Source of the DNA: Alphaproteobacteria bacterium
Lineage (GTDB): Bacteria > Pseudomonadota > Alphaproteobacteria > M2410
Direction of reading: 5' to 3'
Length of the DNA: 34,212 nucleotides
Assembly: GCA_006226415.1 (NCBI GenBank)
Contig: SBGZ01000015.1
Location: 1-34,212 of the forward strand
Shown: positions 1 through 11,989 of the stretch, piece by piece
Position numbering within the stretch: the stretch's first letter is position 1
How the letters are laid out: every line of letters starts with the position of its first letter
Program-made: the position numbers and the translations under genes
The notes under the pieces: generated by a model
The model's database searches: none
The model's input: only the letters and a program-made list of their open reading frames with translations
What the model was told of the DNA's origin: nothing

Positions 1-1059
1 GTAAACGCAAAAGAGTTTGCCGACATGCCCGAGGTGACCCAGGTCATCGGCAACACCGAAAAGCTGACGGCGGAAACCTATCAAAAGGATTTCGGCATCG
101 GCGCCGCCGAGAAAGTGCGCGTCAACGACATCATGTCGGTCACCGAGACCGCGCCGCAAATGCTGATCGAAGGCATCGAGGGCCGCGCCCGCGCCTTCGT
201 TCAGGTGCAAAACGGCTGCGATCACCGCTGCACCTTCTGCATTATTCCCTTTGGCCGTGGCAATTCCCGCTCCGTGCCGGCTGGCGAAGTCGTCCGCCAG
301 ATCAAAGCCCTGGTGGAGAGCGGCTACCGCGAAGTGGTGCTGACCGGTGTCGACATTACTTCTTACGGGCCAGACCTGCCCGGCGAAGCCGACCTTGGAC
401 GGCTCATCGAACAGATTCTAACAGGCGTGCCGGATCTGGATCGCCTGCGCATCTCTTCTATTGATTCCATTGAGATTGATGCGCGCCTGAAAGACCTCAT
501 CATTCATGAGCCACGCCTGATGCCCCATCTGCATCTGTCATTGCAGTCCGGCGACAACATGATTCTCAAGCGCATGAAGCGCCGCCACGCCCGCGAGCAG
601 TCCATCGACTTCTGCCGCGAGGTGAAGGAGGCTCGCCCCGATATGGTCTTCGGCGCTGACTTTATCGCCGGTTTTCCGACCGAAACCGAAGAGATGTTTG
701 AAAACACGCTGGCTTTGGTGGACGACTGCGACCTGACGCTGCTCCATGTTTTTCCCTATTCCATCCGCCCCGGCACGCCCGCCGCGAAAATGCCGCAAGT
801 GCCTGGCGATGTGATCAAGGCCCGTGCCGCCCGGCTGCGCGCCAAGGGTGAGGAAGCGCTGGCGCGGCATCTCCAATCCATGATCGGCACAACGCAAGAA
901 GTGCTGGTAGAAAATCCGCACATGGGCCACACACCCAACTTTACCCTCACCCGATTTGCCGAGCCGCTGGTGCCCGGCACCCTGGCCCGGGTCACCATGA
1001 CCGGCGCTAAAGAGGGCGCCCTTCAAGGCGCGCCCGTGAAAGAGAGAAAATCCGCGTGA
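1..1059 (+). CDS. mtaB: tRNA t6A37 methylthiotransferase MtaB (5' truncated by window edge)
   Basis: Radical SAM enzyme that adds a methylthio group to N6-threonylcarbamoyladenosine at position 37 of ANN-decoding tRNAs. The reading frame is open from base 1, so the ATG at 25 is internal and the N-terminal UPF0004 domain is only partly present. The radical SAM cluster motif CxxxCxxC is seen as CDHRCTFC (C73, C77, C80 counted from base 1), followed by typical family segments: GYREVVLTGVDITSYG, LSLQSGD, and GADFIAGFPTE. A C-terminal TRAM-like region closes the protein. It ends in a GTGA overlap with ftsY, so the two are probably cotranscribed and translationally coupled. Choice of MtaB over MiaB or RimO rests on overall resemblance and the neighbouring ftsY, as is common in alphaproteobacteria; confidence is high. 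Confidence 0.93.
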   Translation, partial: VNAKEFADMPEVTQVIGNTEKLTAETYQKDFGIGAAEKVRVNDIMSVTETAPQMLIEGIEGRARAFVQVQNGCDHRCTFCIIPFGRGNSRSVPAGEVVRQIKALVESGYREVVLTGVDITSYGPDLPGEADLGRLIEQILTGVPDLDRLRISSIDSIEIDARLKDLIIHEPRLMPHLHLSLQSGDNMILKRMKRRHAREQSIDFCREVKEARPDMVFGADFIAGFPTETEEMFENTLALVDDCDLTLLHVFPYSIRPGTPAAKMPQVPGDVIKARAARLRAKGEEALARHLQSMIGTTQEVLVENPHMGHTPNFTLTRFAEPLVPGTLARVTMTGAKEGALQGAPVKERKSA

Positions 1060-2126
1060 GCGACGAAGACACCAAAAAGAAACGCCGCTGGTTTGGCTTC
1101 GGCAAAACTGACGTTGAAGCTGAGGCCGAGCCGGTCAATGCGGCAACAGAGCAGCCACATGATGAGGCGGTGGAGGACACGGCCAAGCCTTCCCTCTTCA
1201 AGCGCCTGACCAAAGGCCTTTCGCGCTCTTCCGGCGCCATTTCTGACAGCGTCACCAGCATTTTTACCAAAGCCAAGCTCGACAGTGAGACGTTGCAAGA
1301 ACTTGAAGACGTTCTGATCACGGCCGATCTCGGTGTTGAGACCACCATGGCGATCACGGGTAAGCTCGCCAAGGACCGCTTCGACAAGGAAATCTCTCCG
1401 CAAGAAATCAAAACCTTCGTCGCCGAGGAAGTGGCGCAAATTCTAAGGCCCCTCGTCAGCCCCTTTAACATCGATCCTTCCCTAAAGCCCCATGTGGTGC
1501 TCATGGTCGGCGTCAATGGTGCCGGTAAAACAACCACCATCGGCAAGATGGCGCGCCGCGCCAAGGACGAAGGCCTGAAAGTGATGCTCGCCGCCGGTGA
1601 CACCTTCCGCGCCGCCGCCATTGATCAGCTCAAAGTCTGGGGCGAACGGGTCGGCGCGCCGGTCATCGCCCGTGATGTGGGCGCCGATGCGGCGGGCCTT
1701 GCCTTCGACGCCCTGGAGCAAGCAAGGCGCGACAACGTGGATGTGCTTTTCATCGACACTGCCGGGCGTTTGCAAAACAAAACTGAGCTCATGGCCGAAC
1801 TTGAAAAGATCACCCGCGTGATCAAGAAGGTCGACCCGAGCGCGCCTCACTCGGTGCTTTTGGTGCTTGATGCCACCACCGGCCAGAACGCCCTAAATCA
1901 GGCCAAGGTCTTTACCGAGATCGCCGGCGTCACCGGCCTTATCATGACCAAGCTCGACGGCACCGCACGCGGCGGCATCCTTGTCGCCGTGGCCGCCAAA
2001 CAGGGCCTGCCGATCCACGCCATTGGCGTGGGCGAAAGCATTGAAGATTTTCAACCCTTTGATGCCGAAGATTTTGCCCGCGCCCTCGTCGGCCTTGACA
2101 GCGCCGCGGCAGAAGCCGCTCAATAA
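1056..2126 (+). CDS. ftsY: Signal recognition particle receptor FtsY
   Basis: SRP receptor GTPase, which docks ribosome-SRP complexes at the inner membrane for cotranslational insertion. The 356-residue protein has a short charged, acidic N-terminal region (residues 1-45), then the N and G domains. GTPase motifs are clear: G1 GVNGAGKTT (152-160), the insertion-box/G2 DTFRAAA (182-188), G3 DTAGR (234-238) and G4 TKLD (298-301), followed by the GGG-like RGGILVA segment. The start is GTG at 1056, overlapping the TGA of mtaB by 4 nt (GTGA). The A domain is much shorter than in E. coli FtsY, which is normal for alphaproteobacteria. Identification is very secure. Confidence 0.97.
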   Translation: MSDEDTKKKRRWFGFGKTDVEAEAEPVNAATEQPHDEAVEDTAKPSLFKRLTKGLSRSSGAISDSVTSIFTKAKLDSETLQELEDVLITADLGVETTMAITGKLAKDRFDKEISPQEIKTFVAEEVAQILRPLVSPFNIDPSLKPHVVLMVGVNGAGKTTTIGKMARRAKDEGLKVMLAAGDTFRAAAIDQLKVWGERVGAPVIARDVGADAAGLAFDALEQARRDNVDVLFIDTAGRLQNKTELMAELEKITRVIKKVDPSAPHSVLLVLDATTGQNALNQAKVFTEIAGVTGLIMTKLDGTARGGILVAVAAKQGLPIHAIGVGESIEDFQPFDAEDFARALVGLDSAAAEAAQ

Positions 2127-2158
2127 CCATCTCATTGTAGAGTTGAAAGGTAAGACAC

Positions 2159-2758
2159 TTGTCAGAAATTAAGCAGCAGCCCCGCAAGATGTCCCACCGC
2201 ACGCGCACCGTCCTCGACTTCGGACCGCTGGTCGTGTTTCTCGCGGCCTATTATTTCGGCGGTAAGGACCCCATTTTAGCCACGGGCCTCTTCGTGGTCG
2301 CAACCTTTATTGCCCTCGCCATTATTTATGTCATTGAGCGCAAAATCGCGCCGCTCCCCTTGATAACAGGCGTCATTGTTGGGCTCTTCGGCGGCCTCAC
2401 CATTTACTTCAACAATGAGGCTTTCATCATGATGAAGCCCACCATTGTTTATGTATTGATGAGCGGTGCGCTCTTTGCCTCTGCCATGACCGGAAAAAAT
2501 TTCCTCGGATCCGCCATGTCGCCTTACATGAAGATGTCGCCCGAAGGCTGGAAAGGGTTTCTCCTGCGCTTTTCAACATTTTGCCTGTTGATGGCGGGCC
2601 TCAATGAGATCCTGCGCCGCGTCCTGGAGTTTGAATTATGGCTCGACGTCAAGGTGTTTGGCTTTATGGCGCTCTTCTTCCTCTTCTCGATGTCGCAGGC
2701 CCCTTACCTGTCCAAACACATCATTGAAGATGATGAGCTGATGCCTTTTGAAGACTAG
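2159..2758 (+). CDS. ispZ: Inner membrane septation protein IspZ/YciB
   Basis: Member of the YciB/IspZ (intracellular septation protein A) family, a small polytopic inner-membrane protein linked to envelope integrity and division. 199 residues with about five to six hydrophobic segments; family signatures visible are LDFGPLVVFLAAYYFGG near residue 20, GLFGGLTIYFNNEAFIMMKPT near 80, and NEILRR near 150. The TTG start at 2159 is preferred because an AAAGGT-like ribosome site precedes it by about 10 nt; ATG at 2189 is an alternative that would still keep all membrane segments. It sits 32 nt behind ftsY, in the same direction, so an mtaB-ftsY-ispZ operon is likely. Its TAG stop lies in a CTAG palindrome shared with the stop of the opposing NUDIX gene. 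Confidence 0.9.
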   Translation: MSEIKQQPRKMSHRTRTVLDFGPLVVFLAAYYFGGKDPILATGLFVVATFIALAIIYVIERKIAPLPLITGVIVGLFGGLTIYFNNEAFIMMKPTIVYVLMSGALFASAMTGKNFLGSAMSPYMKMSPEGWKGFLLRFSTFCLLMAGLNEILRRVLEFELWLDVKVFGFMALFFLFSMSQAPYLSKHIIEDDELMPFED

Positions 2759-3303
2759 GCCTTCTTCATCAGCGCCAGAAATTCACTCATTTCATCTTCC
2801 GGGTTGGTAAAGGGCGTAAAACTCTTTTGCGCCTCAATTTCCCGGTAATGCTTAAGGGCCCAAAGAACACTTGGGAAGGCAAGCTCCCCCCAAGGGATAT
2901 CTTCCCAGGTAAATAGACCCACTTCGAGACTTTCAGGCCCCGGCGCAATATGTGGCGACTTAAGCCGTGCTACATGCATCAATTGTACTTGGCTGATACG
3001 TGGAATATTGTACACCGCCAGCAAGTTTTCGATTTCAATTTCCGCGCAGGCCTCTTCTTGCGCTTCACGAATCGCCCCTTGCTCCGTCGTCTCGTGATGC
3101 TCTAAATATCCCGCTGGAAGCGTCCAATAACCTGCGCGCGGCTCTATCGCGCGTCTGCACAATAGAAATTTGTCTCCCGAAACAACAACAGATCCCACAA
3201 CAATCTTAGGGTTGGAATAATTAATGAAGCCGCAGGTGTCACACACCTCCCGCTCCCGGTCTTCCCCATCGGGCACCCGCAGAGAGAAATTCGGATCTGC
3301 CAC
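2755..3303 (-). CDS. NUDIX hydrolase with N-terminal CxxC knuckle
   Basis: Predicted nucleoside-diphosphate-linked substrate hydrolase; the substrate cannot be told from sequence. The NUDIX box occupies residues 65-87: G65, E71, R79-E80, E83-E84, giving the catalytic REx2EE core, but the usual Gly near the end of the box is Cys86 (EEACA). The N-terminus carries one CDTC knuckle (C21, C24) followed by GFINYSNPKIVVG, as in NUDIX proteins with an N-terminal zinc-ribbon (Nudix_N_2 type); I see only this single Cys pair. 182 residues. The gene converges on ispZ with a 4-nt overlap and is divergent from the marR-like gene. Family assignment is secure, specific function unknown. Confidence 0.88.
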   Translation of the reverse strand: MADPNFSLRVPDGEDREREVCDTCGFINYSNPKIVVGSVVVSGDKFLLCRRAIEPRAGYWTLPAGYLEHHETTEQGAIREAQEEACAEIEIENLLAVYNIPRISQVQLMHVARLKSPHIAPGPESLEVGLFTWEDIPWGELAFPSVLWALKHYREIEAQKSFTPFTNPEDEMSEFLALMKKA

Positions 3304-3373
3304 CTGCGCTCCTTTAGCGGTCTGAAACCTGGCATTTCATGACAAGAGTGTCTGCTCCCGAGAGATTTTGCAA

Positions 3374-3402
3374 CGATCAAGCTAATAAATTATTTGTGAT
3401 CG
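3374..3402. promoter_or_regulatory. Nested inverted repeat between NUDIX and marR genes (possible operator)
   Basis: Outer arms CGATCA (3374-3379) and TGATCG (3397-3402) flank an AT-rich inner palindrome AATAAATTATT (3384-3394). It lies in the divergent intergenic region between the NUDIX start (3303) and the marR-like start (3548). The symmetry suggests a dimeric repressor site, but no binding protein can be named; chance occurrence in AT-rich DNA is possible. Confidence 0.3.
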
Positions 3403-3454
3403 AATGGCTCCCACTTTCGACTTTTTTGGGGCCGCAGCGAAACCGCCTAAAGTT

Positions 3455-3491
3455 TGTCAAAATTGACAGTCAAGATGGGTTGCATACAGAC
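3455..3491 (+). promoter_or_regulatory. Candidate promoter/operator of the marR-like gene
   Basis: TGTCAA (3455-3460), 2 nt, TTGACA (3463-3468) form a perfect 6-bp inverted repeat. The right arm is a consensus -35 hexamer, and a poor TACAGA (3485-3490) lies 16 nt downstream as a possible -10. The overlap of a symmetric element with a -35 box 80 nt before a MarR-type gene is what an autorepressor site would look like. The -10 is weak, so the promoter call is tentative. Confidence 0.35.
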
Positions 3492-3547
3492 TAAATCTGA
3501 GTATGTTGTCGGTGAAAATAATCAGCCTACAAGTTTAGGAAATAATA

Positions 3548-4138
3548 ATGGCAAAATTTGATATCACGGATTCCCCCGGCCACCTTTTGCGCCGTGCACA
3601 ACAATACGCTTTCGACCTTTTCTCCGCGGAGATTGGCAACTCCAACCTGACACCGCGTCAGTTTACGGTTCTCTTGACCGTTCAGCAAAACGAAGGCTGC
3701 AGCCAGACCGATCTGGTGAAGATGACCGGGATTGACCGTTCAACCCTTGCTGACATGATTTCCCGCCTGATTGACCGCAAGCTGCTCTCACGTACCCGCA
3801 CCAAGGAAGATGCGCGTGCCAATGCCGTAAAAATCACGGCGGCTGGTAAAAAACAGGTGGCCTCTCACATGAACAGCGTGAAGAAGGCGGAAACCAAGAT
3901 TCTCTCCGTTTTGCCTGTCAGCCAACGCACTTCTTTTATGAATTCGTTGAAGACCATTGCCGCTGCTGCTGACGAACTTGACGCCGGCGGCACCAAACCG
4001 GCTGCGCCAAAGACACGCAAAGCTGCGAAAACAAAACCGGCGGCCAAAAAGTCCGCAAAAAAAGCAGCCAAAAAGTCTGCAAAAAAAGCAGCCAAGAAGA
4101 CCGCCAAGCGCAAAACCAAAGCAAAAAAGAAAAAGTAA
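3548..4138 (+). CDS. MarR-family winged-helix regulator with histone H1-like lysine-rich C-terminal tail
   Basis: DNA-binding regulator of 196 residues. Residues 1-145 form a MarR-type winged helix-turn-helix: LTPRQFTVLLTV (34-45), the recognition region CSQTDLVKMTGIDRSTLADM (51-70) and the wing with RLIDRKLLSRTRTKEDARAN (73-92). Residues 149-196 are a low-complexity tail with 22 Lys, 2 Arg and no acidic residue, built of AAKKSAKK-type repeats as in eukaryotic H1 and bacterial H1-like proteins. The tail is encoded by a 24-nt tandem repeat (4043-4066 and 4067-4090, one mismatch). The ATG is preceded by AGGA at 3537-3540. It is monocistronic, with a strong terminator behind it. The tail probably gives non-specific DNA binding or compaction; the target genes are unknown. 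Confidence 0.88.
   Translation: MAKFDITDSPGHLLRRAQQYAFDLFSAEIGNSNLTPRQFTVLLTVQQNEGCSQTDLVKMTGIDRSTLADMISRLIDRKLLSRTRTKEDARANAVKITAAGKKQVASHMNSVKKAETKILSVLPVSQRTSFMNSLKTIAAAADELDAGGTKPAAPKTRKAAKTKPAAKKSAKKAAKKSAKKAAKKTAKRKTKAKKKK
4043..4090 (+). repeat. 24-nt tandem repeat encoding the lysine tail
   Basis: Two copies of a 24-nt unit (4043-4066, 4067-4090) differ at a single base (tcc versus tct) and are followed by a degenerate third start (gccaagaag). Each encodes AKKSAKKA and contains a run of seven A. The repeat lies in frame in the marR-like gene, so copy-number change would lengthen or shorten the tail by 8 residues without a frameshift. Confidence 0.85.
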
Positions 4139-4168: not shown

Positions 4169-4195
4169 AGGGCCGGATATCTTCCGGCCCTTTTT
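4169..4195 (+). terminator. Rho-independent terminator of the marR-like gene
   Basis: A perfect 9-bp stem AGGGCCGGA (4169-4177) / TCCGGCCCT (4183-4191) with a 5-nt loop runs into TTTTT. It lies 30 nt after the marR-like stop. The last bases overlap the stop codon of the opposing ccmG gene (4194-4196). On the minus strand the hairpin lacks a T-run, so it acts mainly in the plus direction. Confidence 0.9.
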
Positions 4196-4763
4196 ATTGA
4201 GTGTCTGACACCAAAACCGTTCGCGCCTCGGCTTCCTCAATGGCAGGCTCAATGATGCTGCGCAGACTTTGCGCATCGAGCGGACCCACATGTTTGTATA
4301 CGACGCGGCCATTGCCATCGATCACAAATGTTTCCGGCACGCCGTAAACCCCCCAGTCAATACCCGTGCGGCCAAGTGGGTCCACGCCGATTGCGGTAAA
4401 GGGATCGCCGAGGTCTCTGAGGAAGGCAAGAGCATCAGCGGTCTCATCTTTGTAGTTGAAGCCATAGATCGGTACATCGTGGGTCCGAGCCCAGGCAATC
4501 AGCGCCGGATTTTCATTGCGACAAGGGGCACACCAGGAAGCCCAGACATTGACCACCGACACCTGCCCCCGCGTAAAGAGATCATTGGTGAGACCTCCCT
4601 GGCCCTCCTTGTAGCCGGGAAGTGGTGCCAGATCGATCTGCGGTGCGGGCTCGTCAATGAATACGGAAGGGATCTCCTGCGGGTTGCCAATATATAGCCC
4701 GATACCCAGCAACAGTGACAGACCGGCAAACAGAGCCAGAGGCAAAAACCGAACGAAGTTCAT
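4194..4763 (-). CDS. ccmG: Periplasmic thiol:disulfide oxidoreductase CcmG/DsbE
   Basis: Membrane-anchored thioredoxin-like protein that helps reduce the CxxCH thiols of apocytochrome c before heme attachment. 189 residues: an N-terminal signal anchor (about residues 5-25), then the thioredoxin fold with active site WCAPC (C78, C81) in VVNVWASWCAPC, and the cis-Pro loop GVPET (141-145). The GFNYKDETADALAFL segment is typical of CcmG. It is the last gene of the ccmABCDG cluster; its ATG overlaps the TGA of ccmD (ATGA). No terminator of its own is obvious. Confidence 0.94.
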   Translation of the reverse strand: MNFVRFLPLALFAGLSLLLGIGLYIGNPQEIPSVFIDEPAPQIDLAPLPGYKEGQGGLTNDLFTRGQVSVVNVWASWCAPCRNENPALIAWARTHDVPIYGFNYKDETADALAFLRDLGDPFTAIGVDPLGRTGIDWGVYGVPETFVIDGNGRVVYKHVGPLDAQSLRSIIEPAIEEAEARTVLVSDTQ

Positions 4764-11018: not shown

Positions 11019-11672
11019 CTACTCCGCCTCCTGCGAGCGCTCCCGCGTCCAATAATAGACAAAAGAATAGATGCAGCCGATGAGGATCGGCACGACAAGG
11101 CCGGCGGCAAAGACTTCCATGGCCGGGTGAATAAAAGCGGCAATTCCCATGATCAGCCCGGCAATCACCATCAACATGCCCGTCAACCGATGGGTCGCCG
11201 ACCAATTATTGTCCGAGGCAATGGTCCAGGGCAGGCGCAGCCCAATGAAAAAATTCTTTTCACTTTTGCCGATGACATTGCCAAAGAGGATGAGAAAGAG
11301 AGCCCCGCTAAGCGCCAACGCAAAGCGAAAGGTTTCACCGCCCGTTGGGTCGAAGAGCGTACCAAAATGAATGCCCGCCAAAAGGACACCGACCGCCAGA
11401 TATATTTGCCCGAGCAGGGGGCGGGAATTGGGCATCGACCATTGCCGGGGAGAAACCCGAAGCAGCACAGAGATCAAACCCATGGCGCCCAGCAAGGCCG
11501 CCGGCATGATCCAGATAAAGGTCTGCGCCGCCTCATAGCGATCCGCCTCGCCCTGTATGTTGAAATGCACAGGCACTTCCGCCGGCAGATTGCCGCCCAG
11601 CACGAGATTTCCCACAGCCATGATGACAACCAAAAGCAATCCCGGACCAAATTCTTTCAGAAAAAGTTTCAT
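11019..11672 (-). CDS. SdpI/DUF1648-type integral membrane protein
   Basis: Membrane protein of 217 residues with about six hydrophobic segments. The N-terminal DUF1648 motif is clear: LPAEVPVHFNIQGEADRY (29-46). The C-terminal SdpI-like region reads GNVIGKSEKNFFIGLRLPWTIAS then NWSATHRLTG. In Bacillus subtilis SdpI gives immunity to the SdpC toxin and sequesters the SdpR repressor; in proteobacteria the role is unknown. The gene overlaps the upstream ArsR-type gene by ATGA, reproducing the sdpR-sdpI pairing. No toxin gene of the sdpABC type is seen nearby, so an immunity function should not be assumed. Confidence 0.82.
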   Translation of the reverse strand: MKLFLKEFGPGLLLVVIMAVGNLVLGGNLPAEVPVHFNIQGEADRYEAAQTFIWIMPAALLGAMGLISVLLRVSPRQWSMPNSRPLLGQIYLAVGVLLAGIHFGTLFDPTGGETFRFALALSGALFLILFGNVIGKSEKNFFIGLRLPWTIASDNNWSATHRLTGMLMVIAGLIMGIAAFIHPAMEVFAAGLVVPILIGCIYSFVYYWTRERSQEAE

Positions 11673-11941
11673 GGTGATTCTTCCTCTCTGCGAAACATAT
11701 CGGAGACCGCCTGCGCCGCCTCCTCAAAGACACTCATATGGACGCCATAGATGATCTGCTGCCCCTTGCGGCGCGTGATCACAAGTCCCGCCGCTTTCAA
11801 CTTGGCCAGATGATGGGACAGCGTGGCCCCGGAGAAATCAAAATGAGCATGGATCTCGCTCACGCTCATTTCGCCCCCTTTGAGAAGGGAGAGTATTTTG
11901 CGCCGATGCGGGTCGGCCAAGGCTTCCCAAACGCTCTGCAT
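11669..11941 (-). CDS. ArsR-family (SdpR-like) transcriptional repressor
   Basis: 90-residue winged-helix repressor: MQSVWEALADPHRRKILSLL, then the recognition region MSVSEIHAHFDFSGATLSHHLAKLKAAGLV and the wing RRKGQQIIYGV. It lacks the ELCVC-type Cys metal site of arsenic or cadmium sensors, so it is a non-metal, SdpR-type member. Start at 11941 is chosen because AGGAG (minus strand of 11947-11951) lies 5 nt upstream; ATG at 11959 would put the start inside the operator. It is followed by the SdpI-like gene with a 4-nt overlap. A symmetric operator lies in its promoter, so autorepression is likely. Confidence 0.88.
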   Translation of the reverse strand: MQSVWEALADPHRRKILSLLKGGEMSVSEIHAHFDFSGATLSHHLAKLKAAGLVITRRKGQQIIYGVHMSVFEEAAQAVSDMFRREEESP

Positions 11942-11957
11942 GACATCTCCTTTAGAC

Positions 11958-11989
11958 ATTTAGATAATTCTCTAAATAATAAATGTCAA
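11958..11989 (-). promoter_or_regulatory. Promoter and ArsR-type operator of the sdpR-sdpI pair
   Basis: On the minus strand a consensus -35 TTGACA (11989-11984) is followed after 17 nt by a weak -10 TATCTA (11966-11961). The -10 region lies inside a perfect inverted repeat ATTTAGA (11958-11964) - 6 nt - TCTAAAT (11971-11977). The size and AT-rich symmetry fit an ArsR/SmtB-type site. Occlusion of the -10 would explain autorepression. Confidence 0.6.

Follow-up and report, generated by a model that had tools for sequence, protein, structure and literature searches.

We describe a MarR-family regulator that continues into a lysine-rich, H1-like tail and that belongs to one syntenic group of alphaproteobacterial orthologues, many of which carry a basic tail of the same type. 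The gene lies in a 34,212-nt stretch of alphaproteobacterial DNA (contig SBGZ01000015.1), hereafter called the window, where it forms an ORF with an ATG start at positions 3548-4138 of the plus strand, coding for 196 residues. The fold assignment, the tail, the conservation of its composition, the synteny and purifying selection within one long tail are established here. As for its function, we give about an even chance to a mechanism in which the winged-helix dimer recognizes specific sites and the H1-like tails grip further DNA, resulting in bridging or clustering of DNA and association with the nucleoid.

The protein scores 51.4 bits against Pfam MarR_2 (cut-off 27; E=1.2e-13, residues 33-91) and 46.4 bits against MarR (cut-off 24.6; E=3.7e-12). 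No equivalog cut-off was reached among the named MarR subfamilies of NCBIfam, of which the Saro_0803 family came top (61.7 bits vs 200). An AlphaFold model of the core, a monomer built on a 21-row alignment (pLDDT 88), predicts helices at residues 10-29, 36-47, 53-60, 64-76, 98-120 and 124-142, with strands at 80-83 and 93-96. The top solved structures retrieved with Foldseek are those of BpsR (6pcp/6pco, TM 0.86-0.88), with PcaV, 2nnn and CouR among the further best matches. Judged from the monomer model and these matches, the core has a MarR fold with N- and C-terminal dimerization helices. It is about 30% identical to BpsR, PcaV and CouR (6pcp, 6pco, 4fht, 6c28) over 137-141 columns; unlike in these regulators, an H1-like tail follows, outside the aligned region.

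The recognition helix (TGIDRSTLAD) and, in the wing, R82 and R84-N92 do not vary among 21 diverse orthologues, whose identity to the window protein goes as low as 48%. BpsR is described as binding 6-hydroxynicotinate through Tyr15, His23, Arg26 and His32 (PMC6837509). In a profile alignment, these residues correspond to F4, H12, R15 and A21 of the window protein, meaning that two of the four (His23 and Arg26) persist, that His32 is not kept, and that position 4 is F where many relatives have Y. Because His23 and Arg26 fall on H12 and R15, which are nearly invariant among the 21 orthologues, a carboxylate ligand is possible for the window protein. Given the invariant recognition helix and the persistence of half of the BpsR ligand residues, specific binding and ligand control do not appear to be obviously lost. 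Together with the invariant wing, this gives no support to the suggestion, made in an initial annotation of the gene, that ligand control may have been lost and the product act as a nucleoid protein.

The same annotation had placed a MarR core, ending at residue 145, in front of an H1-like tail. This order holds, but the tail itself begins at residue 149, after a short linker (AGG, residues 146-148) that follows the last predicted helix. Its composition is as had been claimed: the last 48 residues contain 22 K, 2 R and 14 A, without D or E, whereas the highest charge of any 48-residue stretch in 13 other nearby ORFs examined is +8. Of 45 tail codons aligned with the sister species, 21 differ synonymously and 7 change the amino acid; a further 10 are gap codons. 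The coordinates of the gene's features and its conserved neighbors are listed in the table.

Features of the MarR locus (window coordinates)
Feature	Position	Strand	Evidence
NUDIX hydrolase, divergent, conserved neighbor	2755..3303	-	Pfam; synteny
43-bp block upstream of gene, identical in sister species	3469..3511	+	sequence comparison
Promoter-like pair TTGCAT-16-TATGTT, inside 43-bp block	3480..3507	+	inferred
MarR core, residues 1-143: dimerization helices and winged helix	3548..3976	+	Pfam, AlphaFold model, BpsR structural match
H1-like tail, residues 149-196, net +24, no acidic residue	3992..4135	+	composition; kept in relatives
Tandem repeat within tail, 24-nt unit x2.6, coding for AKKSAKKA units	4043..4104	+	DNA repeat search
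Terminator-like stem-loop with T tract	4169..4191	+	weak: 2 found in region vs 1.7 expected in shuffles
Thioredoxin-like protein, CcmG/DsbE type, convergent conserved neighbor	4194..4763	-	Pfam Redoxin; synteny

The tail is of the bacterial H1-like type in composition: a K/A/P-rich basic region, almost free of acidic residues, with a length that varies by repeats. Similar K/R/A/P/T-rich, low-complexity tails, with lengths set by repeat number, are described for Hc1, Hc2/BpH1, AlgP and PhaF, and for AlgP, Hc1 and Hc2 either the tail or the protein is reported to bind DNA (PMC2848022, PMC9239181). Any second domain described there is a dimerization domain (Hc1) or α-helical (AlgP), not a winged helix. 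The window protein has no match to Pfam HC2 (PF07382) up to E=1, and no linker-histone family is among the 19 Pfam families listed for it up to that value. The likeness is one of composition and gives no evidence of common descent. The window genome also encodes a stand-alone, lysine-rich protein of AKKKV repeats (~117 residues; L135:1278-1631, minus strand; G000:C85), which reaches 36.8 bits against HC2 in a genome search, below the cut-off of 40, and matches no Pfam family at 1e-5 in hmmscan. Its presence rules out that the tail is a stand-in for a missing H1-like protein. Over 385 genomes, PF07382 gave a match at E<=0.001 in 150, with 46 over the cut-off; as many of these lie in long frames, we draw no association from them.

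To count as a C-terminal tail, a stretch had to be at least 20 residues long, with at least 30% K+R, at most three D/E and a net charge of at least +8. Public genomes yielded 54 loci, 53 of them with a complete end; 43 of the 53 carry such a tail and 10 do not, the latter being labelled Hyphomicrobiales (eight) or Alphaproteobacteria (two). Tailless close relatives had been named beforehand as counting against the reading and pointing to a recent repeat expansion. They are not what we find: the tail is present in every one of the 30 complete loci that bear the label Parvularculaceae, Parvularcula or Marinicaulis (counted by hand; L028, which is cut off, was left out), though more distant orthologues are tailless. 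A search of 385 further genomes gave a match at 1e-20 in 77 and 41 places of at least 125 bits. Forty of these places were examined, leaving out G204 (contig edge, 81/140 positions) and including L116 (half a gene) and L126 (a second copy in G094). Nineteen of the 40 homologues are tailed, spread over seven family groups (f1 4/4, f4 3/3, f10 4/4, f92 2/3, f121 3/3, f123 2/2 and f146 1/1): the window's own, in which all four genomes have a basic tail, and six others. No tail passing the threshold occurs in groups f5, f8, f64, f65, f66, f80, f94, f122, f126 and f167. Two f126 rows and three mixed tails in f64 fail this threshold, which L050 and L051 barely pass (net +8). The f64 tails (L111, L112 and L113) are lysine-rich with 5-9 acidic residues, and are either transitional or tails of another kind.

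Among the 60 rows of the tree set that carry a tail, its length is 23-855 residues (median 42), with 31-62% K+R and at most two acidic residues in any. Pooled without the two giant ones, the tails consist of 35% K, 27% A, 12% R, 10% T and 6% P. Tail length drifts, but tail composition does not. The tree, made by a quick method from 99 rows and 140 columns, excludes duplicates, incomplete rows (L028, L057, L116 and L128) and rows below 60 bits, and has 42 open forks and several long branches. It places the tailed orthologues in one starred group of 80 rows, with tailless ones within the same group, and contains at least eight changes of tail state, in which gain is not distinguishable from loss.

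The longest tail is found in L129 (G141, 995-3994, plus strand), a closed ORF for a 1000-residue MarR protein with an 855-residue K/R/A/T/P tail; its relative L130 (G239) has a tail of at least 386 residues that runs off the contig. L129 has no match to Pfam HC2 up to 0.01. Its longest exact repeat is 46 nt in DNA and 66 residues in protein. Between the two 66-residue copies, which start at residues 249 and 660, 39 of the 66 codons are different (39 nucleotide changes at third positions and 1 at a first) without a single amino-acid change. As these differences are all synonymous, the protein sequence of the repeats has been maintained as the underlying DNA diverged, placing this tail under purifying selection. 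Synonymous-only drift in one long tail, and retention of the tail among orthologues, uphold the earlier view that the tail matters; the same two observations rule out a recent repeat expansion.

In L131 (G128:C4), the C-terminal tail is absent; an 89-residue N-terminal extension, read from an in-frame ATG, is free of acidic residues and contains 34 A, 19 K, 13 P and 7 R. In G314 (L116/L128), from the same group, the protein begins with a short basic stretch and closes with a basic one of 13 residues, its gene lying on two contigs with ends identical over 149 bases. In the MarR family, the dimerization domain is built from both the N- and C-terminal helices, which would explain an N-terminal tail in one lineage; a tail at either terminus could leave from the same face.

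Gene order in the window is mtaB-ftsY-yciB/ispA-nudix-MarR-ccmG-ccmD-ccmC-ccmB-ccmA-acnA, several of these names, including ccmG, being ones we presume from the products. Most loci have the nudix gene upstream of the MarR gene, and many have ccmG downstream; the Parvularculaceae loci keep the upstream side and, within the sequence stretch covered, do not show the ccm side. The genes nudix and ccmG adjoin both MarR genes without an H1-like tail (L038, L040, L041, L042 and L044) and MarR genes with one (L045, L048 and L049). These shared neighbors support orthology of the tailed and tailless forms, and since the tail is missing from syntenic orthologues of other groups and of MAGs that bear the label Hyphomicrobiales, the core function does not need it. 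Elsewhere in the window (11669-11959, minus strand), an ORF that looks by eye like an ArsR-like winged-helix protein adjoins a membrane protein.

The MarR gene is probably monocistronic. Its form of the promoter-like pair is present in each of the seven f1/f4 loci looked at and absent from 79 other loci, but the pattern was written after viewing the seven, so that the shuffle rate is no fair test. A palindromic EM search (width 20, 75 upstream regions) reached a log-likelihood of 162 vs 33-34 in three letter shuffles, a difference for which relatedness among the sequences and a common site immediately ahead of the start codon are confounders. Dyad symmetry in the window's upstream region was not above shuffles. 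A half-site, GCATACNGA, occurs with one mismatch in 29 of 96 upstream regions vs 11 in shuffles; the 96 include repeats of one locus, and the half-site overlaps the promoter-like block. Operator-pattern searches of the genome returned the window's own site only, with two hits for the backward control vs one in one of them. The protein may autoregulate at its own promoter.

The simplest mechanism would combine specific anchoring with a non-specific grip of further DNA, and we propose it because an AlgP/Hc1/Hc2-like tail joins an apparently intact specific-binding dimer. The winged-helix dimer would bind specific sites, probably its own promoter. Two disordered tails would leave the dimerization domain, presumably on the opposite side to the bound DNA, and may grip other DNA non-specifically. 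The dimer could then bridge or cluster DNA and associate with the nucleoid. Counting against this reading are the tailless syntenic orthologues, the f64 tails with their 5-9 acidic residues, the stand-alone AKKKV-repeat protein, which gives the genome a second H1-like element, and the missing HC2 match.

The main rival, which we consider rather unlikely, is that of an ordinary specific regulator with few targets, whose tail does no more than raise affinity and accelerate target search (through sliding and inter-segment transfer), without packing DNA. The invariant recognition helix and wing, the retained possible ligand residues and the shortness of most tails all agree with it, as does a 26-bp upstream element that has a single genome copy with up to three mismatches, in keeping with a small regulon, provided that this element is the operator. 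Against it, some tails (134, at least 386 and 855 residues) are much longer than target search calls for, and the candidate operator lacks dyad symmetry above shuffles. The long tails would favor nucleoid organization over a mere speed-up of target search. Improbable, in our view, is binding of the tail to a protein partner or to another polyanion (polyphosphate granules or RNA), by which the regulator would be coupled to that target; AlgP and PhaF have been proposed to work in this way. AlgP, with its KPAA-repeat H1-like domain, is described on polyphosphate granules, where this domain is required for granule spacing (PMC9239181); however, the description of AlgP gives it an α-helical N-terminal domain and not a winged helix, and no granule gene is among the conserved neighbors examined. 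Functionless, neutral expansion of an A/K-rich repeat fits the tandem DNA repeat and the greatly varying lengths but is highly improbable given the basic, acid-poor composition kept across many genera, the synonymous divergence in L129 and the predominance of synonymous changes in the sister species, the same kind of extension at the N-terminus of L131, and the absence of frameshift, acidic drift or tail loss in the 30 complete Parvularculaceae loci.

Eukaryotic linker histone H1 consists of a winged-helix domain and a long K/A/P-rich basic tail. The window protein shares this architecture, but its core has a dimeric-regulator fold and we claim no homology. The archaeal chromatin proteins TrmBL2 and Sso10a likewise put a regulator-type winged-helix fold to use in chromatin, but belong to other families, and no H1-like tail is mentioned in the accounts of them drawn on here (PMC4877046, PMC4941522). 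Our literature search, with most subscription journals outside it, listed no report of an H1-like tail on a MarR protein. Here, a specific regulator and an H1-like tail, usually separate in bacteria, are united in one conserved gene, and natural variants (tailless, 23 to 855 residues, C- or N-terminal) make the function of an H1-like tail testable across orthologues. If DNA is bridged, this would show a route from transcription factor to chromatin protein, with the linker-histone plan repeated in bacteria. More speculatively, and with considerable doubt on our side, the protein may be a bacterial counterpart of linker histone that organizes the nucleoid in an alphaproteobacterial clade, having evolved from a ligand-sensing MarR regulator and still reading a metabolite; if so, a small molecule could tune chromosome architecture.
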